This document shows, piece by piece, positions 1,645 through 54,607 of a stretch of DNA of 64,000 bases; the first letter of the stretch is position 1, and each line of letters begins with the position of its first letter. This DNA comes from Cytophagales bacterium (lineage in GTDB: Bacteria > Bacteroidota > Bacteroidia > Cytophagales > Thermoflexibacteraceae), in the NCBI GenBank assembly GCA_013299115.1, contig JAAFKA010000002.1, positions 1 through 64,000 of the forward strand, given 5' to 3'. The notes below the pieces were generated by a model, which saw nothing but the letters and a program-made list of their open reading frames with translations, was not told the DNA's origin and made no database searches. A program made the translations under genes and the position numbers.

Positions 1645-2715
1645 ATGATAACCAAATATATCAAAAATTTATTGGCAGAACACGAAAAAGTTGTTGTGCC
1701 GCATTTGGGTACTTTTACTACCTCTTATAGCCATGCCACTGTTGGCACAGACCACGAAAGCCTATTGCCTCCTCAAAACCAAATTGCTTTTTATGAATAC
1801 GAGGTAAACAATGGCGACTTGCTGCGGAGTGCCATCTTAAAAAATGAGTCAATAGACGAAGGCACTTACCACAAGTTGCTCAAAGATTTTACAGACGATA
1901 TCAAGACGCAAATTGCTATTTTTGGTAGCTATGAAGTGGCGGGTTTGGGTCGTTTTTTTAAGAATGAAAACGGCGTTTTGCAATTTGAGCAACAAAATAA
2001 CCAAAACTTTTTGGGTAGCAGTTTCGGCTTGCCCAAAGTGGATTATCAACCTTTGAAAGCTACTCATCAGGAAAGCAACACCGCAAACACTTCAAAAAAC
2101 ACTAACGAACCTGTGGGCGTGGAAGAAGAAAAAGACAAACGCAAATCTTCTGAATTGGTTTGGTGGCTCGTGGTTATTCCCTTGTTGTGCGTATTTGCTT
2201 TTTTGATTTATTTGGTAACAGACAAAGATGCCATAGATAGGTTCAAGGCTTTTTTCAACGGAGGCAAAGATACGCCTGTTGCCCTCAATATGTCTGAGTC
2301 TAAGTCGTATGACAATTTTCAAAAAACTAAATCAGATGTACTCACCACCACACCTGACAATACAGAAAATACACCTGTTTCGGAAGTGCCTGAACCCGAA
2401 AAAGAGGACAAAGAATTGATTGCAACTAAAAATAAAGACAAAACTGTAAAAGCAACAGTTGCAACTGCACCCGAAGTGGCTACATCAGGCAAATATTACA
2501 TTGTCTTGGGTAGTTTTACGGCAACCGAAAAAGCCGACAAATTGCGAGGCGACATAGCAAACAAAGGTATCAACGCCAAAGTTATTACAGGTAAAGATGG
2601 CAAAGTATTTAGGGTGGTTTACGACCAAGAATTTGGTACAGACAAAGAAGCAGCCCCCAAAGTAGCCGAAGTGGGCAAACAACTCAACGTACAGGCGTGG
2701 GTGGCAAAATATTAA
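1645..2715 (+). CDS. HU (CCDC81-type) and SPOR domain membrane protein
   Basis: This 356-residue protein has an N-terminal HU/IHF-like CCDC81-type domain (about 1-130, starting 'MITKYIKNLLAEHEKVVVPH'). One membrane helix follows (about 171-191, 'LVWWLVVIPLLCVFAFLIYL'), then a low-complexity, charged linker. A C-terminal SPOR domain (about 282-356, 'GKYYIVLGSFTATEKADKL') ends the protein. SPOR domains bind denuded peptidoglycan at division sites, so the C-terminus should lie in the periplasm and the HU-like part in the cytoplasm. This HU-SPOR architecture is common in Bacteroidota and is thought to link DNA or the cytoplasm to the division septum; that role is inference. The ATG at 1645 fits the conserved start. 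Confidence 0.85.
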   Translation: MITKYIKNLLAEHEKVVVPHLGTFTTSYSHATVGTDHESLLPPQNQIAFYEYEVNNGDLLRSAILKNESIDEGTYHKLLKDFTDDIKTQIAIFGSYEVAGLGRFFKNENGVLQFEQQNNQNFLGSSFGLPKVDYQPLKATHQESNTANTSKNTNEPVGVEEEKDKRKSSELVWWLVVIPLLCVFAFLIYLVTDKDAIDRFKAFFNGGKDTPVALNMSESKSYDNFQKTKSDVLTTTPDNTENTPVSEVPEPEKEDKELIATKNKDKTVKATVATAPEVATSGKYYIVLGSFTATEKADKLRGDIANKGINAKVITGKDGKVFRVVYDQEFGTDKEAAPKVAEVGKQLNVQAWVAKY

Positions 2716-2730
2716 GACAAGAGGAACTAT

Positions 2731-2776
2731 TTAGTACGTTGGCAAGGCTGCTTTTGCACCTTGACAATCGTACTAA
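2731..2776. repeat. Palindromic repeat, TTGGCAA..TTGACAAT core with complementary arms
   Basis: The perfect arms TTAGTACG (2731-2738) and CGTACTAA (2769-2776) enclose a core related to the ones at 43323, 48081 and 61630 (TTGGCAAgG ... CACCTTGACAAT). The core is shared between copies, while the arms differ but stay complementary. It lies between the HU/SPOR gene and the following membrane protein gene. It makes a spurious TTG extension of that gene. Confidence 0.75.
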
Positions 2777-2802
2777 AATTAGACCTAAATAACTACGAAA
2801 AT

Positions 2803-3303
2803 ATGATACTCATTTACGTTAAGTTCCTTTGGTTAGCCTCCATGGTAGGCTTTTTGGTTATGCTGGGAGTTTTGCAGATTTATCTGCCCTCTCATGTCGT
2901 TTTTACTATGGAAAATGTCTTGGATTTTGGCTATGCTTTTACAAAAGATACTTTCTTTTATATGGCGTTGGCAATGGGCGTATTTGTCAATGCTGCTCTG
3001 CTTGCCTTTGGCAATTTGTATAGTTATTTACCAAAAAAGTACATTTTTGTTCCTAAAAAGAGTTTTTGGTTGCAAAATATAGAAAAACATCGCCGTTTGG
3101 CAAAACTATTTAAAGGCTGGACAAAAGGTATTTTGTTGGTTTGCAACTTGCTCTTGATTTACTTCTTAATTTCTGTTTGGGCTTTGCACGACCAATTTAT
3201 ACGTTATGACACGTCTTGGGTTTTTGTTCTCTTGCTTTTGGTTTTAGTCGGTTGGTTGGTTTATTATCCTATCTTGTTTGCGACTGCTACGGAGGAAGAT
3301 TAG
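2803..3303 (+). CDS. Hypothetical membrane protein (about 4 TM)
   Basis: The product has 166 residues from the ATG at 2803. The frame is open from a TTG at 2761, but that codon lies in the palindromic repeat, so the ATG is preferred. Four hydrophobic stretches are visible: near residues 3-25, 50-68, 110-133 and 137-158. A basic loop ('KHRRLAKLFKGWTKG') precedes the third, suggesting it is cytoplasmic. No family is recognised. The stop overlaps the convergent amine oxidase gene by 4 bases. It follows the HU/SPOR gene in the same direction after an 87-base gap that contains the repeat. No function can be assigned from sequence. Confidence 0.65.
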   Translation: MILIYVKFLWLASMVGFLVMLGVLQIYLPSHVVFTMENVLDFGYAFTKDTFFYMALAMGVFVNAALLAFGNLYSYLPKKYIFVPKKSFWLQNIEKHRRLAKLFKGWTKGILLVCNLLLIYFLISVWALHDQFIRYDTSWVFVLLLLVLVGWLVYYPILFATATEED

Positions 3304-4685
3304 TCATAAAAGTATGGTTTTTCTGATGGATAGTTAGCTCCTATTTCTTTTGCAGCTCTTACTCCTGACAGATACGCCCCATGTGCATAAGAATAATAGT
3401 CTTGCAAAGTAGCTTCACCTGCAAAAAACAACTTACCAAAAGGTGCTGCCAAGTCGTCAAACACAGTAGGTTGCACACCTACAGGCAAATAACTGTATGC
3501 GCCTAAGCTATATTCGTCTGTTGTCCAACGGCTGACCAAATAGTTTTGAAGTTCAACTTTTTTCTTTAGGTAGGTTTTATTGAGCAAATCCAGCAAATAA
3601 GTTACTAATTGGTCATTAGTCAAAAATTCCATTTGTCGGGCATCTTCGCCACCAAAATAAGCTGTTAGCACAGGTTGTTTCTGAAAAAACTGGTGGTTAT
3701 GCACAAAAGAAACGTGCAAGTCTTCTGTTTCGGTAGGCAACCACGTTAAAACTTCACTTTTAGGTTGCCAAAAACAATAGGTAAATTTTAAAAATACTTT
3801 ATTCAAAGCCCCCATTCCTATCGTGGCAATGGCGGTTTGTTTGGCAGCAGGCAAAGGTGGCAAAAATTCAACTTTTTGTTGTTTTAGCACACCCAAAGGC
3901 AACGTAACGACTACGGCAGTAGCCTCCCAAATTTTAGTTGGCGTATAAATTTTGACCCTTCCCTCTTGATTTTGTTCTATTTTGCTTACCACTTGCCCTA
4001 AATGAATGGGTATATTTTGGGCTAAATTTTCAATCAACTGCCCATAACCTTGCGGAAGAAGCAAATCATTGCTTATAAATTCATTTTCGTCGCTTAAAAT
4101 GCTTTGTACCGAAATCTTATCGAGGTCTTCGCCATAGTAACTTTCAAAGAGTTTGGTAGCCCACAACAACATCACTTCTTTTTTAGGGAGTTGCACGCCA
4201 TTGAACAAAGTTTGATAGGATTGATTGGGATAAGTAAGCATATTTGCCTGTAAAGCCTGCCCCAGCGAAGCATCTGCTAATTGATTGGTTTGGAGGTACT
4301 GTTGCAACTGCCCTTTGCTTGTGCAGTGCTGAAAAAAATGCAAATAATTTTTAATGGCGGGTTTTGTTAGGGTCAAGCCTTGCTGGTCGCAGGTGCTTAA
4401 AGCCGTAAATGGCGACACCACAGTAGGCAATTCCAATTTTTTTGCCAATTCGTGGAGAGGTTGGTGCGTATCTGCATAGTGAATCCACGATGCTCCCAAA
4501 TCTAATGGTACACCTAAGCTATGGTCTGTATGTACCCTTCCGCCTATGCGTGTACGTGCCTCCAAGACCTCCACCGCATAACCTGCCTGTTGCAAAGTTT
4601 GGGCTGCTGCCAAACCTGCCATGCCTGCCCCTATGATAATGATGTTTTGCAAAGTAAAATATAAAATTTGTGTTACCCAATCCAT
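3300..4685 (-). CDS. Flavin-dependent amine oxidase (monoamine oxidase family)
   Basis: This 461-residue FAD enzyme probably oxidises an amine to an imine or aldehyde with release of H2O2 and ammonia; the substrate is unknown. The ADP-binding Rossmann motif is 'IIIIGAGMAGLAAAQTL' (about 15-31), followed by the 'EARTRIGGRVHTD' signature at about 41-53. The C-terminal FAD motif 'FFAGEATLQDYYSYAHGAYL' is near 415-435. The length is typical for the family. The only ATG before the Rossmann fold is at 4685, which lies 13 bases inside the end of the upstream M61 peptidase gene, so the two are probably translationally coupled. No signal peptide is seen, so the enzyme is likely cytoplasmic. Confidence 0.85.
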   Translation of the reverse strand: MDWVTQILYFTLQNIIIIGAGMAGLAAAQTLQQAGYAVEVLEARTRIGGRVHTDHSLGVPLDLGASWIHYADTHQPLHELAKKLELPTVVSPFTALSTCDQQGLTLTKPAIKNYLHFFQHCTSKGQLQQYLQTNQLADASLGQALQANMLTYPNQSYQTLFNGVQLPKKEVMLLWATKLFESYYGEDLDKISVQSILSDENEFISNDLLLPQGYGQLIENLAQNIPIHLGQVVSKIEQNQEGRVKIYTPTKIWEATAVVVTLPLGVLKQQKVEFLPPLPAAKQTAIATIGMGALNKVFLKFTYCFWQPKSEVLTWLPTETEDLHVSFVHNHQFFQKQPVLTAYFGGEDARQMEFLTNDQLVTYLLDLLNKTYLKKKVELQNYLVSRWTTDEYSLGAYSYLPVGVQPTVFDDLAAPFGKLFFAGEATLQDYYSYAHGAYLSGVRAAKEIGANYPSEKPYFYD

Positions 4686-6550
4686 GCCTTTCGCAAAGCA
4701 AGTTGTTCACTGGTAGCTTTGGGGTTGATTTCCAACACATTAAACTCTGTTTGGCTGTTTTGGATAATCTTACCTTTCAGTTTGAGTTTTTTCTTTTTGC
4801 CGTCTGTGGTTCTTTCCACCGTAATTTTGAGGTCATCGCCAATGACAGCTGTTTTTTGGTAATTTTCTACAAAAGCCTGTATGTTTTCGCCTGTAATTTT
4901 TGTTTTGTTTATTTCCAAAATCAAATCATCTGTTCGGTAACCCAATTCCTCGCCCAAAGCATCTATTTCGGTTACATCTGCCACTACCACTTTGCCCTCT
5001 GGATTGGTTGCAATGCTGATTCCGCCTAACGAGGTTCGGTTATTTTGGCGTTTGGGCAAATAATTGATACCAACGGCTGCCAAAGACTCCGTAAGAGGCA
5101 ATTTTTCTTCGCCTTCTACATAGCGTTGAAAAAACTCCTTCAATTCAGGAAAACCTGTAATTTGCACAATTTTGTCAAACAGTTCTTCGTCTTTAAAGGC
5201 TTTGTTTTTTCCGTATTCCTTAGCCAAATCTGCCATCAGGTTTTGCAAACCATAACTGCCCTTAGAAAGTTGGCGAAGGCGAATATCTAAACACAAGCCA
5301 ATCAAAGCACCTTTTTCATACACATTGCTATATTGGTCTTTGTAAGTGGTAAGACAGCCTTTGCTCATGGTCGTAAAAGGCAATTTTTGATTAAATCCAT
5401 CGGCATTGATTATCTTGTTTCGCATCGTGCCAAGGTAGTCGTCTAAGGAAAGCAAGCTGTGCTTGGCTTGCATATGCCCCGCAAAATACTCGACCACACC
5501 CTCGTAGAGCCACAAATGCTTAGACATTTCGGGCTTGATGTAGTCAAAATCGTGGATTTGCTCGGCGTGAATACTCAATGGCGTGATGATATGAAAAAAC
5601 TCGTGAGCAGCTACGTCTTTAATGGTTTGAGCCAAAAGCATGGGATTCATTTCGGGCAAAAAGTACAAAGACGAATAAGAATGTTCCAAAGCACCCATAG
5701 CACCCGAACCACTTGTGCCTTTGAACAAATAAATGATAAAAGCATAACGGTCTATTGGGAGTTTGCCACCCAAATACTCTTTTTGTGCATTCAAAATGTC
5801 TTTGATATTTTGGGCAACAAACTTAGAGCCCATTACCTTGCTTGGCGAATAAACCGAAACCAAAATTTCTGCTCCGCCTACATTCATTACTGTTGTGTCG
5901 GGCTTGCAATACATAATGGGTGAGTCGACCAACTCCATATAAGTAGGCACTTGGAATTGGTCGTTTTGGGCATCTTTTGCGGTGGCTCGCAAGGGCGAAG
6001 AACCAAAAAACTCGGCAGGTTTTGTGAAATTCAGCACATAAGCATTGCGTTTCATGCCCTCCAAATAGCCAAAAAAACCATGTGTATTGACCACAAAATT
6101 GCTACCTTCTTCTATGTTAGTTCCCGCAGGCTCAAAAATAAAGTTAGGTTGTTTGGTATCGTAAGAGTCTTCTACCTTGTAAGTGATTTGGTATAATTTG
6201 CTTGCTTGCAAAATTTTCCAAGAATTTTCATCTATTTTGAGTACAGGCAAGGACTTGCCTATGCTATCAGTAGCCTGAAAATCGGACAAAAAACGACCAA
6301 AATCGTAAATGCTATACGTACCAGGTACTATTTTGGGTAAGTAAAACAAGATTTCATCTTGATTGGCAGGCAGTTTAAAATAAGGAACTATCAACTGCAC
6401 AGACAGTTTGTCGTCTTGTACTTTGTTGAGGTCTATAAAATATTGGTAATTTTGAGTTCTTGCCAACACAGTGCTTTTGTTTTGGGCAAGTATTGTTTGC
6501 TTTAATCCAAAAAGGGACAGCAACAAAAAGATTTGGAAATAATAACGCAT
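4673..6550 (-). CDS. M61-family (glycyl aminopeptidase-like) metallopeptidase with PDZ domain
   Basis: This 625-residue secreted zinc peptidase begins with a signal peptide ('MRYYFQIFLLLSLFG' to about residue 23). An N-terminal beta domain of the M61 type follows. The catalytic site is HEFFH at 316-320 with the third ligand E350 in 'LWLYEGVVEYFAG', as in M61 peptidases. A C-terminal PDZ domain is at about 510-590 ('TDDLILEINKTKITGENIQ'). Family members cleave N-terminal glycine or act as general endopeptidases. Export by Sec puts it in the periplasm or outer membrane space. It overlaps the downstream amine oxidase gene by 13 bases, but there is no obvious metabolic link between the two. Confidence 0.88.
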   Translation of the reverse strand: MRYYFQIFLLLSLFGLKQTILAQNKSTVLARTQNYQYFIDLNKVQDDKLSVQLIVPYFKLPANQDEILFYLPKIVPGTYSIYDFGRFLSDFQATDSIGKSLPVLKIDENSWKILQASKLYQITYKVEDSYDTKQPNFIFEPAGTNIEEGSNFVVNTHGFFGYLEGMKRNAYVLNFTKPAEFFGSSPLRATAKDAQNDQFQVPTYMELVDSPIMYCKPDTTVMNVGGAEILVSVYSPSKVMGSKFVAQNIKDILNAQKEYLGGKLPIDRYAFIIYLFKGTSGSGAMGALEHSYSSLYFLPEMNPMLLAQTIKDVAAHEFFHIITPLSIHAEQIHDFDYIKPEMSKHLWLYEGVVEYFAGHMQAKHSLLSLDDYLGTMRNKIINADGFNQKLPFTTMSKGCLTTYKDQYSNVYEKGALIGLCLDIRLRQLSKGSYGLQNLMADLAKEYGKNKAFKDEELFDKIVQITGFPELKEFFQRYVEGEEKLPLTESLAAVGINYLPKRQNNRTSLGGISIATNPEGKVVVADVTEIDALGEELGYRTDDLILEINKTKITGENIQAFVENYQKTAVIGDDLKITVERTTDGKKKKLKLKGKIIQNSQTEFNVLEINPKATSEQLALRKAWIG

Positions 6551-10425: not shown

Positions 10426-13400
10426 TTACTTTACAACCACAGTTTCCCAAACCACGACCTCAAAATTTTCGGGGTTGAAATAATTATTAGCAGCATTTTC
10501 TTTCTTACCAGCAAACATAGCAGCCCCAAAACCAGCTTTGGCGGCTTTTTTCAAATCTGCTTTGGTTTCTACTGTGGTTTGTTGGTTTAGATAATTGGTA
10601 AGCATTTCGGCAAGTTGGTTGATAAAAACCTCGTGATTATCCTCTACTTTTTTCAAGGTTTCGTTATCACGCACCAATTTTTTGTGGGTACTTAGAAATT
10701 GCAAGACAAAAAAGTTATTCAAAAAAACACCCTTTCCTTTGTCATTTGTCAAAACCAAACGCAAATCTTTTGTTTCCTTGTGCTTGAGCAAGGCAATAAC
10801 ATTTGTTTCTGTTACATCTACCAAATTTTTAGTAGGAATTTGATTTATCAAATTCGGAGTAGAATTTTGATTTATCAAATTCTCTTTCTTATCTAAGACA
10901 AAACCCGAAAAAACGTGGTTGGGCATATTTTCTAATACGCCTTTATGCTCCATCAAGTAAGCCAATAAATCCTGCCTAAAAATTTCCATCGAGAAGTCAG
11001 CTAACGAAAGAGCCTGTCCGCCTGCCTCTATGTCGTCCCAAGAAGTCTGCATTTGCCTAAGCATTTTCTCTTCCTGTTGTGATACCAGCGGACTTTCTTT
11101 GAGCATTTCCTCCACTTTTTCTGTCAAATTGTCTATGGTTTCTGTGCCGACCAACGCCATAATTGCCATTCGTTTTTCGACTCTATTTTTGAGGTTCATC
11201 GCATTTTCAAAATTTTCGCCTACCCAAAAATTGACTACCGAAACCGAAGCATTTGGTGAGCCAATACGGTCTATCCGCCCAAATCTCTGGATGAGTCGCA
11301 CAGGATTCCAATGAATGTCGTAGTTTATCACACAATCGCAGTCTTGCAGGTTTTGCCCTTCCGAAATACAATCAGTAGCAATCAGTATATCTATCGGATT
11401 CTCGAGCTGCTCTTTTATGGTTGTGTCGTGTTGGCTGACAAAAGTTTTCCAGACCTCAAAATCTGTAATCATTTCTTTGTTGCGGTGCTTGTCATAGAGA
11501 GTCTGCCATTCTTTTTCTTTAAAAAGTTTGGTATAAGGAGCAAAATATTCGAGTATGGTTTCAAAGTTTTTGAAACTCCGTTGTTCGTTTCTTATCTTTG
11601 CCGAATATTCGTCGCCTGTGATGTATGCAATGTTTTGGTTTGGTAATTGTTTTTTCAAAGCCTCAAATAAATACTTGGCAGTGTCTTTGAAAGCAGTAAA
11701 AATCAACACTTTTTTGGTAGGAATTTGATAAATCAAATTCCTACGGTTTTGTATGGTATCTATCAAAACCTGTAGTTTATCGTCTTTTTGTTTATTTTTC
11801 TCAATATTATCGGCATAGTGTTTTACTTGTTGGGCTATGAAAATTAGTTTTTTGACCTCTGCACGCAAATCTTTTTCAAACTTGCCAATATCCCGAATAT
11901 CACTTAATTTAATAGCCTTTTCTTTGTTTTTGCCCAGCGTATATGCCTCTATTTTTTCGTTAAGTTTTTGGGCATTTTCGCTGTCTGCCTCCATGCTTTC
12001 GTGGAGTTGTGCCTGCTCTTCGGGGATTAAATCAACATAAGGAATGGTGGTTTGTGTATTTTTTCCGTTCCTATTCTCCCGAAATTCTATCACTTTTGCT
12101 AAGGCATTTTCGTGATGTTTCAAAATATTGTGCAGCGTAGATTGAAACGAAAACCACGAAGATTCGAGCCTTTTCATCAACAAGAAAAACATCATACGAG
12201 CCAAAAAACCCTGTCGCAAATATTCGTTTTCGGTGGCATCTTTGGAAGTATTTTCCCATTCCTCTTTTGTTTTCACATATTTTGCAGGTTGGTAGCCCCA
12301 AAAATGTAGCTGTTCTAAGGCTGCAATAATTTGCTCAGGAGTTGCCAATTCACCAAACTCTTTGGGCAGGTGATAAATATTGACAGGTTTTTCTTTGACA
12401 GGAAATTTCAAATCTGTTTGCAAGTTTTTTTCTATCATCTTGCGGGTTCGTGCCACCACTAAGGCATCGTTGAGTTTATAAAAATCCTGTTCTATGTTAG
12501 TAAAAAAATCTTTGAGTGGAACATTGTGCAGTTTGTTTTGTGTTTCCCATTCATTAAATTGTGTTTGTACTCTTTTGAACAAATCTTGCAAATTATTTAC
12601 AAACAAATTGTCTTTAAAACCATCATTTTCGCCTTTTACCAAGAGCTTAAATTGGTTTCGCAAATCTGTAATTTTGGTGTTTATGGGTGTGGCAGAAAGC
12701 AAGAGAACTTTGAGGTCTGCATAAGGTTTTTGCTTTTGCAACAACTGTTCTACCAAAAACTTATACCGATTGGAAGCATCGTTGCGTAGGTTATGGCTTT
12801 CGTCTATGACCAAAAGCAGTTTGTTGTTGTTCTGAAAATACTTTTCTAAGGTCTTTAGTGGTTCTTTGGAGGCTAACCTTTGGTCTTGCAAATCTGTATG
12901 ATAACGGACAATGTAACGAAAATCGTCTGTTTCAAAAATAGAACCGTTGCCGTTGCGATACTTTTCCCAATTATTTTCTAACTTTTTAGGACATAGCAAA
13001 ATAGTTTTGTAGCCTTCCAATTCATAGTATTTCATCACCGCTAAGGCTTGCCACGTTTTGCCCAGCCCTACGGCATCTGCCAAAATTGCTCCGCCATAAT
13101 TTTGCAGCATACGAATAAGACTTAATACGCCCTTCTGTTGAAAATCAAAAAGTTTGCTCCAGATGGCAGTTTCTTTGAGGTGAGTAAGTTGTTTTTCTAT
13201 CCACTTCGTATCCGAATTGTTTAGGTCTTTGGCAAACAACTCGAACAAAATTTTGTAATAAATTTCTTCGGGACTATACGCATAAAACAGCTTTTTTATC
13301 TGCTCTATGACGTATGCCTTATAGTTTTTCTTTGTTTGGTTTTCAATTACAATTTCTGTATCTGCCTCATTCCACATACGTTGAAACCATACTTTTAAAT

Positions 13401-13994: not shown

Positions 13995-16900
13995 ATGAAC
14001 TTGGTACTTTTTAACGACACTGACCAATTATACCAAGCCACAAAACAACTTTTTGCGGAGTTTGGTTTTGCCTTAAAGGGAGATACAAACCCTTATAGTT
14101 TGCCTTTTGTGTTGGATAATTTGCCTGCCAATATTCCAGAGGTACATAAAAAACTTTTGGCAAATGAAAATATAAAGGTCTATTTTATGGGTGTGGTCAA
14201 TGAAGATACACTAAACAGCAAAATAGAGCATTTATTTGATAGGGAGGCTGCACGAAAAGGAAAGTATAATGAGGAGGGCGAAAACGGCAGAAATGGGCTG
14301 GGGGTGGTGGCTCTTGATTTGGATTTTGAGCCAAAAAAAGCAGATTTGGTGGCACTGGTGCGAATGTTTAACCGAAATTTTGAAACCTCACCAATTATTT
14401 TGGTGATGAGATACAATAAAACCAATTCATCGGGTGGCTCGCAGCCACCCGATAAATTTATTTCCATTGCATCGAGTTTTCGCAGAGAGAGAATAAAAAA
14501 TTCGCAATATTTGGGCGAAGTGGTGGAGAAAGTCTATGTGTTGAAAGATGTAAACGTGGCAAACCCACACAGAGGACATTTAGACACGTTGGCAGATTTG
14601 AAACCCCGCAAGGAAGTAGCTACGTTTGAGGAACTGTATTTGCAGTGGTTGGAGGTGTTTAGCACCAAACTGTTGGGCAAGAAATTCTATCAAGATGTGA
14701 TTAAGTGGTATGGGTGGGCAATAAAAGAAGTGCAATTTCCGCAACTATTGCCCAAAGCCAATGAGCCTGAAAGAATAGCCAACGAAACCTATCAGGAACA
14801 GTCTGTTTTGCGACTGTTTACGAGGCTGATGTTTTGTTGGTTTATGAAAGAACGGAATTTGATACCCGAAAAGGCTTTTGATAAAAAACTCTTGCAAACA
14901 GAAATTAAGGATTTTGGGGCAAAAGACAATTACTATAAGACAGTGTTGCAAAATATGTTTTTTGCTACGCTGAGTGTGCCGATGGAAAACAGAAGGTTTG
15001 TAAAAAAATATGAAAGTGATTTTAGAAGCAAAGATTATGGCAACCAATATGCATACAGGCATCATAAGTTGTTGGAAAATACTGGTTTTATCAAAGAATT
15101 GTTTGAAAAGGTGCCGTTTTTGAATGGGGGCTTGTTTGAGTGTTTGGATAAAGTGGAAAGAGAGGAAAATGACAAGGCTATTGCAGAAACCGAAAAAAGA
15201 ATAGACGGTTTTTCGGAAACACAATATAAACAGGCAAAAGTGCCTGATGTGTTGTTTTTTGGCGAAAAAGCTAACAAAGGTTTGATTGAGATTTTTGAGA
15301 AATACAAGTTTACGATAGAGGAAAACACACCAACGGAGGAGGAAATTGCACTGCCTCCAATCATGCTTGGTACGGTGTTTGAAAATTTGCTTGCCTACCA
15401 CACAGACGACACAGGAAAAGAAGCACGAAAAAGCAAAGGGGCTTACTATACGCCAACCGAAATTGTATATTATATGGTGGAGGAAAGTTTGCTGGCGTTT
15501 TTGAAAAATAAAATAGCAGCCCCCCTAACCCCCGAAGGGGGAGTTTTAACTCCAAACTCAACTCCGCAAGGGCTTAAAGCCCTTGCAGAGTTAAAACGTG
15601 GAGATTTGCACCAAAAACTCGAAAACTTAGTAAGAGAAAAAACCACAAGCAATGAGTTTAGCCCTGCCGAAACCAGACTGCTGATAGAAACACTGTTTAG
15701 TTGCAAAATTCTTGACCCTGCCTGCGGCTCTGGGGCTTTTCCTTATACCTTGTTAGATAAATTGGTGAAAATTTTGAATATTCTCGATGCCGACAACAAC
15801 TACATTGAACAGGTTTTGGCTGCACAGCAAGAGAAAGAAAACCAAGCCCTGTTGCAACAAATAGCTGCCGACTATCTGCCAAAAAGAAACGAACTGCTGC
15901 AAAACAAGAAAATTGTAGAGCAAATTACGATTGACGAACTCCGAAAACAAAATATTGCAGACCTCAACCGCAGACTTGACGAGCTGACCAAACAGTATGA
16001 AGACCAACTGCAAAAGCTAAGGCAAGCCTTTAACCCCGAAGAAAACGAAAAAGATTATGGCAAAAAACTCTATTTGATACAAAACTGTATTTTTGGGGTA
16101 GATATTTTGCCTATTGCTATTCACATTTCTAAACTGCGGTTTTTCTTGTCTTTGCTCATCTCGCAAAAAGAAAACCCCGAAAAGAAAAATAGAGGAATTT
16201 TGCCCCTGCCCAACTTAGATACCAAATTTATTGCTGCCAATACGCTAATTGCACCTGAAAAAGATGCACAAAAACCTGCGAATATGTATATCACAGACAT
16301 AAAAGCAAAGCAAGAAACACAAAAAGAATTGCGGGCAAAACACTTGCACGCAAACAACCATGCAGCCAAAGAACAACTTGCAAAACAAGATATAGCCCTA
16401 CAAAAAGAAATTGCTGAAATGCTGTGGTTGAGTTATAATAATCCACGAAGTTTTGATAATTCGGTGCAACTTGCTAATTATTTGCAAGAAATAGACATAC
16501 AAACTGCACCTTATTCGGTGGAAATAGAAAAACTGACAAAGCAACTAAAAGATGCCAACAAAGACCACAAAAAAGCTATTAATTCAAAAATAAGCGTGGC
16601 AATACAAGCTATTGATAAAATTCATAAAGATACAAACTATGTGCAGTATAAAATATGGCTACCTACTTTTGCAGACATAGACCAGCTGGCTGCCTATACG
16701 CCCTATAACCAAGAAAAAATTGCTGCCCTCTTTGAGCCTGAATGGATGCTGGGCTGCAAGGAGTTTGATGTGGTTATTGGAAATCCGCCGTATGTGCAGC
16801 TCCAAAAAATGAAAGCACAGCAAGAAAGTTTTGAGAAACAAGGCTACACAACTTACTCTAAAGCTGCCGATTTGTATTGCTTGTTTTATGAAAAAGGCGT

Positions 16901-18209: not shown

Positions 18210-21200
18210 CTACAGTTTCAACCCCACCACTGTTACATCATCTACCTGTTCCTGCTCTCCCTGCCAATTCATAAAAGTTTTATCTAATTCGGCTACCTGT
18301 TCAGCCATAGATAAGTGGTGATTTTGGTGCAGCAACTCCCGCAGTTTTTTGGTCATAAACTTTTTGTTTTGGCTACCTCCAAATTGGTCTTGGTAGCCAT
18401 CGCTGACCAAATACAGCGTAAACCTTGCAAGGTTTTGAAAACCTTGCAAGGTTTCTGGCAAAGCATAATCAATTTCATGGCTCATAAACTCCATAGAGTT
18501 TTCAGTTTTTTTGCTACCACCAATAGCTTTTTTATCTGCCTTTATTTCTTTCAATTCGCCTGCCTGCACATAATACAGTGGGTTCATTGCCCCTGCATAA
18601 TTGATTTTTTGGTTGGTTTTGTCTATGGAAATCAGGCAAATATCCATTCCGTCTTGCACTTTGAGGTGGTCGTTGGTTTGGTTTTCGTTGGTGGGCAAAG
18701 CCATGTTTTGATTGAAAAAAGTAGTAATTTCTTTGTTCAGTTTGTTCAGAATCAAGTGAGGGTGCGAAAGTCCACGTTTGGTAATTTCATTCAGCGTAGC
18801 ATTGCCCACCATGCTCACAAAAGCCCCAGGCACGCCATGCCCTGTGCAGTCTGCCACCGCAAAAAGTAGTTTTCCGTTCACTTCCTTACACCAATAAAAA
18901 TCTCCCGAAACAATATCTCTTGGTTTAAACAGCACAAAATAATTACTTGCACCCAACAACTCATTTAGGGTTTCGGTGGTCGGCAACATAGCATTTTGTA
19001 TTCGTTTGGCATAGTTGATAGAAGCAATAATTTCTTGCTTTTGCAATTCTATTTCGTGGAAAGTATCGGCATTATTTAGGGCAATTTGGGTATAAACAGC
19101 CAAACTTTTCAACAAATTGAGGTGATAAGGCTGGTAAGCATTTCGTTTATAGCTTTGCACAGTAATCACGCCAATCACTTTTTCATTTGCAAAAATTGGC
19201 GTATAAAGCATAGCATACACCTTGCTGGTTTGGCTACCATCTTCCAGACTTACCTTGTCCTCGTCATCATGATATTTGCTAATATAGTTTTGATATTCTG
19301 CAAAAACATCTGCAATCAGTACATCACTTTTTTGCTCTATACACCAAACAGGAAACTGGTTTTTGTCTGCCATAGTTCGGCTAAACGGTGTATAACGGAC
19401 TCCGTTTTCTATTGCCAAACGGTAGTAAATTTGCTGTTTTGCCTCGTCATACAAACCAATGCCAAAAACAGTTGCGTCCATCAATTCATTCACATTCTCG
19501 TATAGCGTAGTCAGCACTTTGTCTAAGTCTAAGCTGGCAGTAATTTGCTTGCCAATTTCACTCAATACCTGCACATTTTCGTAAGAGTTTTCAATTTCTT
19601 GCTTTTTTGCCTCTATTTCGGCTGTCCGCAACAAAACTGTTTTTTCTAAGGCTGCGTTTTGGGCTTGCAATCTTTTGGTATTAAATTTTACGATTTGCCA
19701 AACCACCAAACCACTCACGCCTACATACACAAGGTATGCCCACCACGTTTGATACCAAGGGGGAAGGATTTTGAATTGGTAAGTTGCCTCTCTGCCCTCC
19801 ACCTCGTAAATATTTTTAGATTTTACCCGAAAAACATAGTTGCCTGCGGGCAAATTGGTATATTCTTTTTTGCTCTCTTTTGTCCACGAAGACCAATTTT
19901 CGTCAAAGCCTTGTAGTTTATGACTATATAGATTTTTTTCGGGTAAATCATAATAAGGCAATGAATATTCAAATAGTATTGTATTGTATTGGTAAACAAT
20001 ACCTTTGGCGTGAATATTTTTTGTAAGGAGTTGGCTATCTGTGCCATAAAAAATAGTACTGTCGTTAGGTAAGCTAACTTTGCGTAATTGTGTAGCAGGA
20101 ATTTGATTATAATTTTTCTTGATTTTACCATCAAACCTAAACAACCCTTCCGACCCACCAAACCAAAGCACTTCTTGCGGGTCTGCCCAAAAAGCAACAT
20201 CGGACATGGTGGGAATACGATAATAAGGCGTAGAATTCCATTGATAACTGCCATCGTTTTGGTATTCGGCTACACCCAATAAATATTGTTTGCCTTTGAT
20301 GGCACAAATCCACACGTTTCGTTTGTTGTCTTCTAACAAATTAGTTATAGCATAGCTGTCATCGCCAAATTGAAAGCCAAATTTGGTGTAAGGCACAAAA
20401 TTATTTCCTTTTGGGTTATATTGTTTTATTCCTTTTTCTGTGGCAACTAATATTTCACCGCCAATTTTGAAAAATTTATTTTCCTTCAGCGTGATATTTT
20501 GGGACGTATCATACTTAACCATTGTAGCTGTTGAATCAAACTTGTTTCCGTTAAGCGTAAATTTTCTCACGCCATTTAGGTTGACAGATGCCCAGAGTTG
20601 GTCGTTTTTGTCCTCTATGATAGACCGAATGTCGTCTCCTTTCATTTTTAAATGACCCTCCTCTTCCCATTTACCATTTTTATAGAGCAAAGCCGCTATA
20701 TAATCTCTGCCACTACAATACAGTCTTAGTGGATTGACCAGAGAGGGATAAACCACAAAGGAAGAATTGGGAGAAATTTGCAATGGTTTTCCATTTTTGA
20801 GTTCATAAACCCCCGCAGCAGCAAAAATTATTTTGGTTTCATTGCCAATTTTCATTGGTTTTATATCCCAAACCTGAAAACTAAAACCTTCTATTTTTTT
20901 AAAGTTATTGGTAGTTTTATCCAAATAAAAAATCCCTAAACTTGTACCTGCATATAGAGTATCTTCAATTCTTGTGATACAATAAACTGTCCCTTCTAAG
21001 CCTCGTTTATCTGTAAAAATAGTTGCAGGTGTATTAATTTCTGTATAAATAATTCCATTATTTGTACCAATCCACAAGTTATTTTGTTTATCTGTATAAT
21101 TTATGTAATGTGACTCAGAGTGCATTCCTTCGGCTTTTTGGAGTTTGTAGAGTAATTTGCCGTTTTTGTCTATAATAAAACTGCCTCCTTTGCGTGTGGA

Positions 21201-42243: not shown

Positions 42244-42395
42244 TTATGTGCTTTCGGTTATTTAATTATGTGCTTTCGGTTTCTCAAAACCGAAAGCAGG
42301 GGTTTCTCAAAACCCCAAAAAGAGTTTAGACAAAATTATGTAAACTTTTACTTTCGGTTTTGAGAAACCGAAAGCACGTATTGTAACCGAAAGTA
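42244..42395. repeat. Cluster of CTTTCGGTT / CTCA-loop palindromes
   Basis: GCTTTCGGTTT-CTCA-AAACCGAAAGC (42272-42297) is followed by GGGGTTT-CTCA-AAACCCC (42299-42316) and CTTTCGGTTT-TGAG-AAACCGAAAG (42351-42374). There are also half copies TGTGCTTTCGGTT (42247) and AACCGAAAGTACGTATTG (42386). The loop is constant while the outer stem bases change in pairs. This cluster fills the 263-base gap between the adhesin and the Rpn-type gene. Confidence 0.8.
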
Positions 42396-44062: not shown

Positions 44063-44071
44063 AAAATTGAA

Positions 44072-44183
44072 TGTAGCATACGCTTTAGCGTGTGCAGTGG
44101 TAAGAAAACAGAAACAACTTCATCGCAAATCACACGCTAAAGCGTATGCTACAATACAAATCACACGCTAAAGCGTATGCTAC
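44072..44183. repeat. Three GTAGCATACGCTTTAGCGTGTG repeats
   Basis: One copy (GTAGCATACGCTTTAGCG + TGTG, 44073-44094) and two copies in the other orientation (CACACGCTAAAGCGTATGC + TAC, 44131-44152 and 44162-44183). The palindromic core is CGCTTTAGCG. The cluster fills the gap between hpt and prs. Related cores with other stem bases occur at 1309, 18191, 47977, 51902 and 58727. Confidence 0.85.
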
Positions 44184-44202
44184 AATATTGCGAATAGACG
44201 GG

Positions 44203-50465: not shown

Positions 50466-53456
50466 TTGGCAAAAACCACAACCTTTTTTGAGGAATTAGA
50501 CAAAATTCGAGAGTTTATTAGCAATCCTGTAAGCGAAGCTGCTAAAAGACCTTTGGTCTATCCCCTATTTCAAAAACTTTTTCCTGCCAAATTTAAGGTG
50601 GAAACAGAGGCTGCAGGGGCAGATGTGTATGTAGAAGGAAAGTTGGTGGTAGAACTTAAAACCTCCGAAACTGATTGGTTATCAGGGTTTTATCAGGCTT
50701 TGCACTACCAAAAAAAAGGTTTGGCTTTTCCTGTGGTTTGTGTGATGGCAGAAAAGTTTTTGGCTGTCTGGAAAGTCAATCACATTCCCGAATTTGCTGT
50801 AATTTTGGCACACACCGCCAACCCCATGACTGCACCAAACATCATGGGCAGGGAAAACGCAAAGAAAACGAGCAAACAAATAGCCAACGAAATTTTGGAG
50901 TCGGCTATGTTTTGCATTACGCCCAAAAAATTTGACGAAGCAAAGAAAAGTTTGCGTCTGACCTACGAAGTTCACGAGTTTTTGAATATTCTGAAAAACC
51001 TCGATTCGGACAGGTTGCAAATAAATACGTTCAATTTTACAGAAAAAATTGAGCAAATGAAAGTGTTTTTTGATACGCCGATGGAGGCTATCCACGCCTT
51101 TTATGAAATGGTGGGCTATTGGGATATTACTTCGCAAATTGCCGAAAACGACAAAGCAAATACTTTGCAGTTGGTGGGCTACAAAGGCAAAAAAATTAGT
51201 GGCGTAGTGGCTGTTGCCCCACGCAAACGCAAAGATTTTGTGAGGTTTGTAGAAAATCATTACATCTTTACCAATGACGGTTCGGGCTTAACGGTTGATT
51301 ATTATTTCAGTCGTTTTGATGAAGTGCTGACCAAAGTAAACCCCGAATATGCCAAACAGCACGGTGTTTTCTTTACAGACGACAATTTGGGTAAATTCTG
51401 TTTGTGGTTTGCAGAACAACAAATTGGTATGGAATGGGCAGATAATTGCATTGTGATTGACCCCGCAGCAGGTTCGGGCAACTTGGTAGTGGGCTACAAA
51501 GGCAAAATTAAGCACAAAATTGTTTCTGATTTGCAACCTGATTTGCTACTCACGATAGAGCAACGGATGAAGGCTGACCCTTATCATATAGAAACAGGTT
51601 TTACGATTATTCCTAAAACTTCGGAAAATGCAGGGCTTAATTTTTTGGATAAAGACCAACAAACTTACATAAAGATTTTAGAAAAATATTTGGATGAAAA
51701 AAGCCTGAAATTAGATAAACCTTTGGCGTTTTTGGTTAATCCGCCTTATAAAAATACAGACGAACACGAAAAACTGCGAACAGACAACGAAGCCGAATAT
51801 GAGATGAACCCCAGCATTTTTGCCCTCACAGGCGAAGATGCGGGAAAGGAAAGGTATTTGGCGTTTTTGGCTCAAATGCTGTTGATTTGTAGGGAACAGG
51901 CACAGGCTAAAGCCTATGCTACAGAAAAACCGACTAAAGTCGGTTCTACAGGTAATTATATTCTGATTTTTTCGCCTACGTCTTGGTTGATACCTCGCCC
52001 AACTTATACCAATTTTAGGAAAATTTTTGATGCTTTTTTTGAGTACAAAGCAGGCTTGGTGGTAACGTCTAACGAATTTTTTAAGATTGGAGGCAAGTGG
52101 CCTGTAGCTTTTACGATTTGGAAATATAAGGAAAAATTGCAAACCCAAAACAATAAAGACAGTAAAGATAATGGAGCAGCTATTCAAACTTTTTTTGATA
52201 GTTTGGCAGAAAGAGATGCCGAAAAAAGTTTTGCTTTATTTGAGCAATTAGTTGGAAATCAGGATTTTACTAATAAAATTTTGATGTATGATTACCTCCA
52301 CCTCAAAGGCAGAGATTTGGTTTATGAATGGGAAAAGGAAAAAACCGAAACCTACCAACTGATGAACGAAAAGGCGGTGGGGATTAAGAATTTTGTGTTT
52401 ACAAAACAAACAGGTGATATCCGTGATGATTTGCCTTTATTGGAAAATAACAAAGGCAAATTGATACGCCAAACCCGATATGATTACAGTTATGCCAAAC
52501 GAAAAGAGGATTATGGAAAAATAGTAAGTGGTTTTCCTTTAAAAGACAAAAAACGACATTTAGAACTGTTGCGGAAATGTGGCGAAACGACAGGCGAATT
52601 TGTTGGCTTTTATGATGACAATACACCCGTGCGTGTGAGGCAAGATACTTGCAACCGCCAGAGTAACAGTCCTGATAGGGTTTGGTTTTTGTTGATGACT
52701 GCATTTGGGCAAGTTAATTTATCACAAATTCATTCAGGAGCAGCCAATAGCAGGTCATACTGTGCTTATGATTTGGAAAGTGCAAAAGTCTTGTTTTCTT
52801 GGTTTGCCATTTCCAAAGCAGTGAATGGTCGTTATCCTTTGTGGGCAAATCAATATGATTTGTGGGCAATAGATTGGGAAAATGTAAAAACCTTAGCAGG
52901 TTTCGAAAACCTGCTAAGGTTTCAGGAGTATTTTTATAATTTGTGTTTTGCCTTTGGTTTGGCAGAAAACCGTTGTGTGGTTACGAAGTTTGAGGCAAAT
53001 AACCCTGTGCCAAATACTCCCGAAATTTTTGTAGACAATCCGCTGTGTCCTACGAATAGGGAAAGTTTTTGGGCGAAAATAATAGCACCAAGCCCCCTAA
53101 CCCCCGAAGGGGGAATTACGTCATTACGTCAAACTCCCCCTTCGGGGGTTGGGGGGCTTGGGCTTATCAGTGCCGTTACAGACTTATACCAATATTGGAA
53201 CAAAACCTATTGCAAAGGGCAATGGCTTTATGATGTGGGGCTGCAAGACGAGCCTTATTTCAAATATTTTGACTATGCAGATTTTCTCACGCCACATTCG
53301 GGCTTGGTGCAAATTCGCAAGTATGCTGAAAATCAGACAGATACAAGGCTTGGCGAAAAATTAGCCTTGATAACTAAACTAAGTGAGGAAGTTAAAAATG
53401 AGATTTTTAGGTTGTTGGTAGAGGTGATAGGCTACTTTGAAAGTGGAAAAAAGTAG
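50466..53456 (+). CDS. One-polypeptide restriction-modification enzyme (type IIG-like nuclease-methylase)
   Basis: This 996-aa fusion joins cleavage, methylation and target recognition. The N-terminal nuclease has D53 and E63-x-K65 in 'ADVYVEGKLVVELKTSE', a PD-(D/E)XK site. After a helical linker comes the N6-adenine methylase: motif I 'IDPAAGSGNLVVGY' (D332) and motif IV 'LVNPPYKN' (N425). From about residue 640 comes the recognition region. No ATG is near the nuclease; the frame opens after a stop at 50442 and the TTG at 50466 is the only plausible start. Three in-frame palindromic elements lie at 51902-51945, 52888-52922 and 53090-53159. The last 230 residues are nearly repeated in the next gene. 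The enzyme should protect the host from foreign DNA; it appears intact. Confidence 0.85.
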   Translation: MAKTTTFFEELDKIREFISNPVSEAAKRPLVYPLFQKLFPAKFKVETEAAGADVYVEGKLVVELKTSETDWLSGFYQALHYQKKGLAFPVVCVMAEKFLAVWKVNHIPEFAVILAHTANPMTAPNIMGRENAKKTSKQIANEILESAMFCITPKKFDEAKKSLRLTYEVHEFLNILKNLDSDRLQINTFNFTEKIEQMKVFFDTPMEAIHAFYEMVGYWDITSQIAENDKANTLQLVGYKGKKISGVVAVAPRKRKDFVRFVENHYIFTNDGSGLTVDYYFSRFDEVLTKVNPEYAKQHGVFFTDDNLGKFCLWFAEQQIGMEWADNCIVIDPAAGSGNLVVGYKGKIKHKIVSDLQPDLLLTIEQRMKADPYHIETGFTIIPKTSENAGLNFLDKDQQTYIKILEKYLDEKSLKLDKPLAFLVNPPYKNTDEHEKLRTDNEAEYEMNPSIFALTGEDAGKERYLAFLAQMLLICREQAQAKAYATEKPTKVGSTGNYILIFSPTSWLIPRPTYTNFRKIFDAFFEYKAGLVVTSNEFFKIGGKWPVAFTIWKYKEKLQTQNNKDSKDNGAAIQTFFDSLAERDAEKSFALFEQLVGNQDFTNKILMYDYLHLKGRDLVYEWEKEKTETYQLMNEKAVGIKNFVFTKQTGDIRDDLPLLENNKGKLIRQTRYDYSYAKRKEDYGKIVSGFPLKDKKRHLELLRKCGETTGEFVGFYDDNTPVRVRQDTCNRQSNSPDRVWFLLMTAFGQVNLSQIHSGAANSRSYCAYDLESAKVLFSWFAISKAVNGRYPLWANQYDLWAIDWENVKTLAGFENLLRFQEYFYNLCFAFGLAENRCVVTKFEANNPVPNTPEIFVDNPLCPTNRESFWAKIIAPSPLTPEGGITSLRQTPPSGVGGLGLISAVTDLYQYWNKTYCKGQWLYDVGLQDEPYFKYFDYADFLTPHSGLVQIRKYAENQTDTRLGEKLALITKLSEEVKNEIFRLLVEVIGYFESGKK
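51902..51945. repeat. Two adjacent in-frame palindromes in the restriction enzyme
   Basis: AGGCTAAAGCCT (51902-51913), followed by ATGCTACA, and ACCGACTAAAGTCGGTT (51928-51944). They are translated as 'AQAKAYATEKPTKVGSTG', between 'LLICREQ' and 'NYILIFSPTSW', a loop of the methylase domain. Both have the CTAAAG centre with different complementary stems. Confidence 0.7.
52888..52922. repeat. In-frame AAACCTTAGCAGGTTT palindrome
   Basis: AAACCTTAGCAGGTTT (52888-52903) pairs with AAACCTGCTAAGGTTT (52907-52922) around CGA. It is translated 'TLAGFENLLRF', the same pattern as 'TLQGFQNLARF' in the SpoIIE phosphatase. An identical copy is at 54024-54058 in the repeated gene. Confidence 0.85.
53090..53159. 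repeat. In-frame 25-bp-arm palindrome (PLTPEGG element)
   Basis: The arms 53090-53114 (starting AAGCCCCCTAACCCCCG) and 53135-53159 (ending GGGGGGCTT) are 25 bases long with a single mismatch, around ATTACGTCATTACGTCAAAC. They are translated 'SPLTPEGGITSLRQTPPSGV'. Copy B of the repeat has a different palindrome at this exact place. Confidence 0.9.
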
Positions 53457-53459
53457 AGG

Positions 53460-53483
53460 GCATAGAGGAACAGACCTCTATGC
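53460..53483 (+). terminator. Hairpin after the restriction gene (first copy)
   Basis: GCATAGAGG (53460-53468) and CCTCTATGC (53475-53483) form a 9-bp stem with a 6-base loop, starting 3 bases after the stop. There is no T-run, so it may stabilise RNA rather than terminate. The ATG of the next gene lies in its right arm. A second copy is at 54611-54634. Confidence 0.55.
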
Positions 53484-54607
53484 AAATTGCTAATCACAAA
53501 TTTTCATATTTACAGACACAAGCAAAAGTTTTTGAATTTAAAGGAAAAGGAGACATACGCAAAAATATACCTTTATTGCAAAGTGCAAAGGGAAATTTGA
53601 TACCACAACCTCGCTTAAATTTATATCGAAATCGCAATAAAGATGAAATTAGCGAAAAAATTATTAGTGGTTTTCCATTGAAAGATGATAGACATTTTAG
53701 GTTGAAAGACCCTTATGGCTTTGTTGATGGAGAATTTGTTGGTTTTATGGACAATAATACACCTGTTCGTATTAAACAAGATACTTGTAATCGTCAAAGT
53801 AACAAACCTGATAGAGTTTGGTTTCGTCTTGACCATATGATTATCAATGTCAATCAAACAAGAATTTTGAGTGGTTCGGCTGATAAATATAGTTTTTGTG
53901 CATACGATTTAGAAACAGCAAAAGTTTTCTTCTCTTGGTTTGCCATTTCCAAAGCAGTGAATGGTCGTTATCCTTTGTGGGCAAATCAATATGATTTGTG
54001 GGCAATAGATTGGGAAAATGTAAAAACCTTAGCAGGTTTCGAAAACCTGCTAAGGTTTCAGGAGTATTTTTATAATTTGTGTTTTGCTTTTGGTTTGGCA
54101 GAAAACCGTTGTGTGGTTACGAAGTTTGAGGCAAATAATCCTGTGCCAAATACGCCCGAAATTTTTGTAGACAATCCGCTGTGTCCTACGAATAGGGAGA
54201 GTTTTTGGGCGAAAATAATAGCCCCTCAACTAAAAACTTTGGCAGTGGCTAACAGCCCTGCCAATAGTTCACCTACTAAACTATTGGCAGGGTCTATCGA
54301 CCACTGCCAAAGTTTAGTAGCTGCCATAACCGACCTTTATACTTATTGGAACAAAACCTATTGCAAAGGGCAGTGGCTATATGATGTGGGGCTGCAAGAC
54401 GAGCCTTATTTCAAATATTTTGACTATGCAGATTTTCTCACGCCACATTCGGGCTTGGTGCAAATTCGCAAGTATGCTGAAAATCAGATAGATACAATAC
54501 TGGGCGAAAAGTTGGATTTGATAAGCAGGCGGAGTGAGGAAGTTAAAAATGAGATTTTTAGGTTGTTGGTAGAGGTGATAGGTTACTTTGAAAGTGGAAA
54601 AAAGTAG
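53480..54607 (+). CDS. Second specificity (C-terminal) copy of the restriction enzyme, no catalytic domains
   Basis: This 375-aa product matches only the recognition and C-terminal part of the preceding enzyme. The first 150 residues are diverged ('GDIRKNIPLLQSAKGNLI' versus 'GDIRDDLPLLENNKGKLI'), with shared 'SGFPLKD', 'DNNTPVR' and 'QDTCNRQSN' blocks. The remaining 225 residues are almost identical, apart from the exchanged palindromic insert. No nuclease or methylase motif is present. It could be an alternative target-recognition subunit, a donor cassette for gene conversion, or the leftover of a tandem second enzyme. The ATG at 53480 lies within the hairpin of the first copy, 24 bases after the upstream stop. 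Confidence 0.75.
   Translation: MQIANHKFSYLQTQAKVFEFKGKGDIRKNIPLLQSAKGNLIPQPRLNLYRNRNKDEISEKIISGFPLKDDRHFRLKDPYGFVDGEFVGFMDNNTPVRIKQDTCNRQSNKPDRVWFRLDHMIINVNQTRILSGSADKYSFCAYDLETAKVFFSWFAISKAVNGRYPLWANQYDLWAIDWENVKTLAGFENLLRFQEYFYNLCFAFGLAENRCVVTKFEANNPVPNTPEIFVDNPLCPTNRESFWAKIIAPQLKTLAVANSPANSSPTKLLAGSIDHCQSLVAAITDLYTYWNKTYCKGQWLYDVGLQDEPYFKYFDYADFLTPHSGLVQIRKYAENQIDTILGEKLDLISRRSEEVKNEIFRLLVEVIGYFESGKK
54234..54315. repeat. In-frame nested palindrome replacing the PLTPEGG element in copy B
   Basis: The outer arms AAACTTTGGCAGTGG (54234-54248) and CCACTGCCAAAGTTT (54301-54315) are perfect over 15 bases. The inner arms CCCTGCCAATAGTT (54256-54269) and AACTATTGGCAGGG (54279-54292) are perfect over 14. 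It is translated 'LKTLAVANSPANSSPTKLLA' and 'GSIDHCQSLV'. It keeps the reading frame. Confidence 0.9.

Follow-up and report, generated by a model that had tools for sequence, protein, structure and literature searches.

Within a 64,000-nucleotide stretch of the genome of a Cytophagales bacterium (contig JAAFKA010000002.1, positions 1 to 64,000; hereafter the window), a gene resembling a restriction-modification (R-M) enzyme and its partial tandem copy carry two different palindromes at one and the same site, with the reading frame preserved in both, as the first-pass annotation of this DNA had claimed. We consider it probable (roughly two chances in three, judging from sequence comparisons) that the first of these, palindrome A, is a non-autonomous miniature of a mobile element that would lie in frame in its host genes and encode a nuclease of the DUF559 family, with end types that are specific to each lineage and overwrite older ones.

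Gene A (996 aa) is an intact open reading frame (ORF) with an N6 adenine methyltransferase domain (Pfam PF02384, N6_Mtase, E 9.4e-5), and we describe it as a single-chain R-M-like enzyme. ORF B (375 aa), also open, is a C-terminal partial copy of gene A in tandem; in the alignment its first 150 or so aa are diverged and its C-terminus is near-identical, and neither Pfam nor the alignment gives it a methyltransferase part. NCBIfam held no match for gene A or ORF B, the sole match in PADLOC was a weak MTase_II for gene A, and gene A found no match in the PDB at E 0.01; an AlphaFold model of gene A built with 7 sequences (mean pLDDT 54, pTM 0.36) was not used for loop placement. Both look to be under purifying selection, with ratios of nonsynonymous to synonymous substitution (dN/dS) against their counterparts in a congener of 0.075 for gene A and 0.207 for ORF B, the latter at a dS of 1.14, which is near saturation. 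The features of the pair, and a second A-type arm elsewhere in the window, are as follows.

50466-53456, + strand: gene A, with palindromes at sites 0, 1 and 2 (ORF, PF02384, dN/dS).
53480-54607, + strand: ORF B, partial C-terminal tandem copy (ORF, four-way alignment, dN/dS).
53088-53161, + strand: site 2 of copy A, putative A-type miniature, AAG-CCCCC...GGGGG-CTT (inverted-repeat analysis, family members).
54234-54315, + strand: site 2 of copy B, B-type inverted doublet of a unit like the repetitive extragenic palindromic (REP) sequences (family mostly intergenic, tandem arrays).
52888-52922, + strand: site 1 of copy A, a third palindrome (33-bp relatives at 44 genomic places).
54024-54058, + strand: site 1 of copy B, an identical palindrome at the same site (inverted-repeat analysis).
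51904-51945, + strand: site 0, small palindromes AGGCTAAAGCCT and AACCGACTAAAGTCGGTT (sequence, protein alignment).
53162-53199, + strand: diverged right flank of the copy-A insert, with its copy-B counterpart at about 54316-54345.
15518-15546, + strand: second A-type arm in the window, in frame (AAPLTPEGGV) in a 1365-aa ORF.

Palindrome A had been placed at 53090-53159 with 25-bp arms; it is present, with a wider extent of 74 bp and 30-nt arms that are 93% complementary and enclose 14 nt, and it translates as SPLTPEGG...TPPSGVGGL. Palindrome B stood as first described, 82 bp with outer arms of 15 bp and, nested within them, inner arms of 14 bp (54256-54269 and 54279-54292), and translates as KTLAVANSPANSSPTKLLAGSIDHCQS; palindromes A and B are unrelated to each other in sequence. 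The site-1 palindrome, AAACCTTAGCAGGTTT-CGA-AAACCTGCTAAGGTTT, which the earlier annotation missed, stands at the same place in both copies and in copy A translates as KTLAGFENLLRF. The site-0 stretch is missing from distant homologues, and the congener has other sequence there.

Could such an arrangement be an artefact of assembly, or palindrome A a chance inverted repeat? Assemblies do fail at repeats, and that of the window genome consists of 74 contigs. However, the congener (G002 in our numbering) has the same A-B tandem order in a separately assembled genome, on what is apparently contig CANGYA010000107.1 of a Cytophagales metagenome-assembled genome, which makes misassembly unlikely and answers an objection raised at first; moreover, both ORFs are open. 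The 14-base core of the arm, allowing at most one mismatch, was found three times in the 64 kb against 0.01 expected, and the arm pattern matched 18 of 291 genomes against 0 of 291 for a reversed control pattern, so palindrome A is not a product of chance. We regard an artefact of either kind as very improbable.

The annotation had proposed a mobile in-frame element, and palindrome A is in fact one of dozens of in-frame members, B belonging to another dispersed family. There are at least 85 A-type matches in the window genome (G000), both strands counted; as 40 of 132 A-family and 40 of 134 B-family candidate stretches were scored, the family counts are lower bounds. BLAST stretches of at most about 20 bp (A) or 25 bp (B) were dropped. 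Distinct A-type arms lay inside ORFs of at least 200 aa, with at least 15 aa on either side, in 63 of 67 cases, a count biased by the choice of loci for BLAST similarity to the coding copy in the window; in a less biased check by pattern search, 11 of the 13 first-listed perfect arms were in ORFs. Gene density alone would place many arms in genes, and the non-random part is the single shared frame. All 34 coding left arms are read in one frame, as (S/A/N)P(L/P/Q)(T/A/P)P(E/K)G(G/E); among right arms, 26 of 29 have a single frame, with the reading PP(S/L)G(A/V)(G/R)G. Of 20 insert-bearing ORFs scanned, 18 had Pfam matches, and the hosts named in this way include LeuRS (two inserts), MetH, UvrA, SMC, pyruvate carboxylase, MeaB/methylmalonyl-CoA mutase, an AcrB-like protein, ABC/C39, several R-M enzymes and others. 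In alignments with solved chains, the MetH insert coincides with a gapped stretch, and those of UvrA and LeuRS site 1 come between matched stretches.

After the arm at 15518-15546 the frame runs on into TPNSTPQGLKAL, a sequence similar to the congener's CGCAAGGGCTT palindrome type, and this is perhaps a chimeric insert. A match to CCCCCGAAGGGGG in the accessible part of PMC2612747 belongs to Synechococcus CRISPR repeats and was judged unrelated.

What connects these palindromes with a nuclease? The sole DUF559 match of the window genome lies in its MetH gene (a 1456-aa ORF, L269) and is flanked by A-type ends, and the same gene also carries one A-type miniature. Between palindrome A and the left end of this element, 26 bases match exactly. 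For 34 distinct miniatures, each counted once when seen on both strands, the exact stretch in common with the element ends had a median of 24.5 bases (14-37, with the maximum in UvrA); for the DUF559 element in the MutS gene of the congener the median was 10 and the maximum 11. Five of ten congener inserts, including those at site 2 of both R-M copies (24 bases), have in turn 22-24 bases in common with their own MutS element. The miniatures thus resemble what would be left of the element of each lineage with its two ends joined, renewed where older copies stood; it would be they that descend from the full element and not the reverse.

We take DUF559 to be a PD-(D/E)XK/Vsr-like nuclease. A search of 30 hand-picked genomes (18 with the arm pattern, 12 without) gave 35 DUF559 matches in 20 of them; 20 of the 35 were in ORFs of at least 700 aa, and all but one of these 20 were in LeuRS, IleRS-like, MetH or MutS genes. 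The long-ORF hosts are as follows.

LeuRS, nine: G086, G011, G143, G091, G046, G031 and G030, and, with weaker or partial domains, G015 and G132.
MetH, six in five genes: G000, G091, G046, G086 and G127 (two).
IleRS-like, a class I synthetase, three: G066, G086 and G091.
MutS, one: G002, the congener.
DEAD/ResIII helicase-like, one: G226, possibly a native fusion.

The name IleRS-like comes from reading the sequence, for which Pfam gives tRNA-synt_1, Anticodon_1 and DUF5915. All three IleRS-like inserts share one site, just before LDLHRP(F/Y)VD, and five LeuRS inserts (G086, G046, G091, G031 and G030) lie at what is LeuRS site 2 in the window genome. MetH and LeuRS were traced into 15 genomes, 13 of them chosen for the arm pattern. 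The MetH linker, which in the window genome holds a 75-nt A-type insert, has in-frame inserts of 462-618 nt in G091, G127, G086 and G046, and LeuRS site 1 has one of 492 nt in G143; each of these long inserts holds a DUF559 domain flanked by hairpin-forming ends (PF04480, E 6e-61 to 7e-32 in five host ORFs, with PF18741, REase_MTES_1575, on the same stretch). The MetH linker is without such an insert in G114, G066, G010, G031, G143, G021 and G009 (this survey leaves out G069), as is LeuRS site 1 in G009, G069, G041, G091, G066 and G021; at the latter site G031, G127 and G046 have palindromes without a nuclease, and G086 has a 63-nt insert in which no arm of 8 was found. Occupied and insert-free sites are both seen across genomes at the MetH linker and at LeuRS sites 1 and 2.

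G086, G046, G091, G031, G127 and G143 showed a single LeuRS and a single MetH place each, which suggests, as far as draft genomes can tell, that for LeuRS and MetH the gene with the insert is the one in use. The nuclease, too, looks translated and kept, since dN/dS is 0.048 between the DUF559 domains of the G046 and G086 MetH copies and all 10 inserts in the alignment (a motif search recovered 10 of 14 host proteins) keep FR(R/Q)QH...DF...E(I/V)DG..H. Pfam scans of the host ORFs gave no intein domain, and the host frame runs open through the insert. Among phage and plasmid records, 3 and 40, respectively, hold relatives of the nuclease stretch, all below 60% identity. Whether all this amounts to a new class, an unspliced and translated element that would home by means of its in-frame DUF559 nuclease to LeuRS, IleRS, MetH and MutS codons and be accompanied by a swarm of miniatures renewed in each lineage, is in our judgement evenly balanced.

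Two further observations concern DUF559 loci. Residues 228-335 of the G091 IleRS-like protein (L271) form an LPD3 domain (Large polyvalent protein-associated domain 3), and the 8-base inverted match around it is at chance level. Two standalone DUF559 ORFs, L248 (126 aa) and L253 (102 aa), have flanking inverted matches of 16 and 19 bases, respectively.

The congener allowed the same question to be asked of many genes at once. Orthologues of 24 A-type sites were searched for there, and both flanks were present at 18. An inverted repeat with arms of at least 9 stood at 8 of the 18, compared with 3.9% of 1080 random windows in the same ORFs (binomial P 1.6e-7); without L051, for which the partner with the top score, L163, is a paralogue that carries an A-type palindrome while the closer one, L150, has none, the stricter count is 7 of 17 (P 1.9e-6). 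Six of the eight differ in sequence from the A-type, being of CCCCTCTCC-type at LeuRS site 1, ABC/C39 and the AcrB-like gene, of CGCAAGGGCTT-type at MeaB/MCM and a ValRS-like gene (named from reading its sequence), and of CCCCTCCCC-type at L143. The other 10 of the 18 sites are without arms of at least 9 (one has 8), and L010/L155 provides a clean insert-free site. As six of the congener orthologues carry other palindromes, the pattern of the two R-M copies also holds between species, and in core genes.

An alternative is that the proteins merely tolerate what falls into them: insertion would be random, survivors would pile up in permissive loops, and there would be neither replacement nor homing. 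Site 2 is indeed a length-variable loop of 11-36 residues in homologues without palindromes, the inserts fall in gapped or unmatched stretches relative to solved chains, and at several congener sites the flanking codons also differ. Against this, full DUF559 elements recur at the same few LeuRS, IleRS-like and MetH sites across families, and the insert of the congener R-M copy A is a chimera, with 28 bases of the window genome's end type on its left and 24 of the congener's own on its right, in which part of an old insert appears to have been replaced. We regard tolerance as the less likely account, and prefer a DUF559 element whose current end type overwrites the old.

What, then, is the history of the R-M pair itself? 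The first-pass annotation read it as a clean before-and-after experiment, with insertion following a duplication between near-identical flanks, and we reject that reading on the identities of the segments. Near-identity holds for 52797-53077 versus 53933-54213 (99%), 53200-53350 versus its copy-B partner (97%) and 53411-53456 versus its partner (98%), but not for the 37 bp of 53163-53199, which are only 59% identical between the copies, nor for 53351-53410 (82%). In 52400-52796 copy A of the window is 85% identical to copy A of the congener and 59-62% to its own B, so the split between A and B predates the split of the species; yet over 52797-53077 the copies of the window genome are 99% identical to each other, and the two species' A copies 90%. 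In the congener, A and B are identical over the right flank and most of the right half of the insert, their left halves differ, and both copies carry yet other inserts at site 2. The identical flanks look like a later homogenisation around site 2, which itself would have escaped conversion; we infer that the homogenised blocks arose by gene conversion and that the conversion tracts end at, or within, the non-matching palindromes. Of the view that palindromes were inserted or exchanged in coding DNA after the duplication, in-frame insertion and turnover stand, with 'exchanged' the better word, and the proposed order does not.

Congener copy A retains the SPLTPEGG half, so that this insert goes back at least to the origin of the genus. 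It was once objected that the peptides might be ancient protein sequence; neither the SPLTPEGG-type nor the B-type peptide is at site 2 in five more distant loci (L057 with two copies, L058, L059, L060 and L043). One of these, L057 (JAAFJK010000439.1, a Cytophagales metagenome-assembled genome), has two long R-M copies in tandem at 3-2387 and 2550-5360, and its first copy reads SPLTPEGG at the site where the window reads KTLAGFENLLRF.

For the pair alone, the differing patch might instead have come by recombination with a third homologue, for example in transferred DNA, with no palindrome moving here. The divergence does reach into the right flank past the palindrome (the 59% stretch of 37 bp), and over the right flank copy B of the window resembles the congener more (81%) than copy A does (70%). 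On the other hand, the B-type and congener inserts share a left border, after a common CCCCTCAAYTAA, and each of the two palindromes also occurs as a dispersed repeat at other places in the genome; we hold this origin to be unlikely. The sequence of events that we favour is that copy A kept an A-type miniature, that copy B gained a palindrome of a normally intergenic REP-like family, and that exchange between the tandem copies homogenised the surroundings of the site and stopped at the non-matching palindromes.

Copy B's palindrome raises the question of whether another enzyme could move all of these sequences. Its family is mostly intergenic, 60 of 74 stretches lying outside any ORF of at least 150 aa (in 28 fetched loci plus the window, some matched places being outside this set), and B-type doublets form tandem arrays at L087 and L090. 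The site-1 family was fetched at 15 of its 44 places, of which 7 are in an ORF of at least 120 aa and 4 well inside a longer protein, 2 of them the R-M copies. The window genome has three Y1_Tnp genes. One, L067, matches the REP-associated model alone (54 bits, below the cut-off of 80) and has one palindrome on both sides, a close relative of which (AATTCATCGGGTGGCT..AGCCACCCGATAAATT) is in frame in the window at 14424-14458, within a 1365-aa ORF; another, L066, scores as IS200-like and weakly as REP-associated, and a B-like palindrome adjoins it. It could thus be that Y1 transposases, REP-associated or IS200-like, move hairpin palindromes in general and that DUF559 is cargo caught between two of them. 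Both site-2 inserts have the inverted-doublet plan of REP doublets, and Y1 transposases suit copy B's palindrome better than DUF559 does. Nevertheless, the 3.3-kb stretch fetched around each Y1 gene held no A-type arm in any of the three cases (the MetH A-type miniature is located just past the fetched L067 stretch), the A-type family is almost wholly intragenic in the loci examined, and conserved genes of four kinds have DUF559 enclosed by palindromes whose type varies from case to case, which goes beyond chance cargo. As the engine of the palindromes at large, with DUF559 as cargo, we find Y1 transposition improbable.

A REP-associated-type transposase gene lies at C11:40224-40517, just past the 3' end of MetH in locus L269 (G000:C11:39800-46200). 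The B-type doublet array of L087 (G000:C18:58953-59793) has units of about 90 bp and is mostly outside long ORFs. The window itself has further palindromes, at 18417-18457 in a minus-strand ORF of 1269 aa (read ETLQGFQNLARF) and at 11717-11744 in a minus-strand ORF of 1168 aa (read RRNLIYQIPT), and large palindromes of other families, outside long ORFs, at 42249-42395, 44070-44184 and 1344-1548.

Returning to the DUF559 element as the source of palindrome A, several observations weigh against it. The miniatures were selected with the A-type pattern, which by itself accounts for some of their resemblance to A-type ends, and 11 of the 34 share only 14-16 bases with the G000 element. Two of the ten congener inserts match the G000 type better (16-17 bases), and three (IcmF, ValRS-like and L143) match neither element (best 7-11 bases). 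An end-arm search recovered 20 of 30 DUF559 loci; matching arms were only 8-10 bases long in G011 LeuRS and G066 IleRS-like, none were found around the inserts of G091 IleRS-like and G030 LeuRS, and the end motifs of the elements are G/C-run hairpins. In other genomes the A-type arm pattern is often intergenic (in ORFs in 9 of 22 cases in G069 and 6 of 12 in G132), and even insertion at random would leave most copies inside genes where the genome is gene-dense. Inspection by eye of the doublets and of the cleanest empty site showed no target-site duplication (no formal test was made), and the flanks gave no signal beyond AAG/CTT. Miniatures stand at dozens of unrelated sites in one genome, which site-specific homing alone would not yield, and copy B's palindrome has no link to DUF559.

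With these points in mind, the mechanism we propose is as follows. The full element would consist of a palindromic end, a short open frame with a DUF559 nuclease domain and a second palindromic end, and would sit, translated, at a few recurrent codon sites in LeuRS, IleRS-like, MetH and MutS genes, where its nuclease, if active, may drive its spread by homing-like cutting of empty alleles. Copies that lack the nuclease would keep the ends and be dispersed, still in frame, among the loops and linkers of many proteins encoded by the same genome. End types would differ from lineage to lineage, and the resident type would overwrite older copies or nest in them. If this is true, it describes a selfish drive element that needs no splicing and is hidden in protein loops; it would account for loops of core enzymes that change rapidly yet in frame and for orthologous proteins that carry different inserted peptides at one place, and mobile DNA may lie behind 'lineage-specific insertions' in aminoacyl-tRNA synthetases, MetH or MutS.

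How does this compare with known systems? Palindromes within proteins were reportedly described as Rickettsia palindromic elements (RPE) by Ogata et al. in 2000 and 2002, and in Wolbachia in 2005. The accessible parts of three accounts of such protein-coding palindromes in Rickettsia and Wolbachia (PMC2229807, PMC10969869, PMC6649704) describe short in-frame palindromes in many unrelated genes, with a conserved peptide, several families and a host protein that presumably works, and the A-type family likewise lies in frame in unrelated conserved genes, with one preferred frame and a conserved peptide. It differs, going by these descriptions, in belonging to another phylum, in the swaps of family at the same site between sister species, and in the presence of resident nuclease elements with the same ends; the parts seen mention no such parent for RPE and offer no candidate enzyme for the entry of palindromes into proteins, for which a resident nuclease element with the same ends is a testable candidate. 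The B-type family follows the plan of REP doublets forming hairpins (REPINs) and of bacterial interspersed mosaic elements, being an inverted doublet of a palindromic, hairpin-forming unit, mainly intergenic and found in tandem arrays. REPINs are extragenic doublets associated with REP-associated tyrosine transposases (RAYTs), 14 of 1,067 16-mers overlapping genes according to the portion of PMC3116915 available; the A-type family, by contrast, is intragenic in 63 of 67 arms, no A-type arm lies beside the three Y1 genes, so that no linked RAYT was seen, and we rejected a REPIN identity for the A-type insert on location.

Homing endonuclease elements in introns and inteins (PMC3943268, seen in part) resemble the long inserts in having an endonuclease-type domain in conserved genes, recurrent sites and insert-free relatives; here, however, Pfam finds no splicing domain, the insert stays in the open frame, the ends are palindromic and copies without the nuclease occupy many sites. 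Miniature inverted-repeat transposable elements, as treated in the available parts of PMC10969869 and PMC2229807, are non-autonomous miniatures of a parent element, and the A-type palindromes similarly lack an internal part, are numerous and have ends in common with one resident full element, but the parent codes for a DUF559 nuclease and not a known transposase, no target duplication is apparent, and the insertions are in frame. Among the papers listed within our coverage, from which subscription journals are mostly absent, there was no description of DUF559 elements with palindromic ends in genes. We class the palindromes of this R-M pair as a variant of the kind of protein-coding palindrome known from Rickettsia and Wolbachia, behind which may stand a new class of non-splicing, in-frame, nuclease-bearing element.

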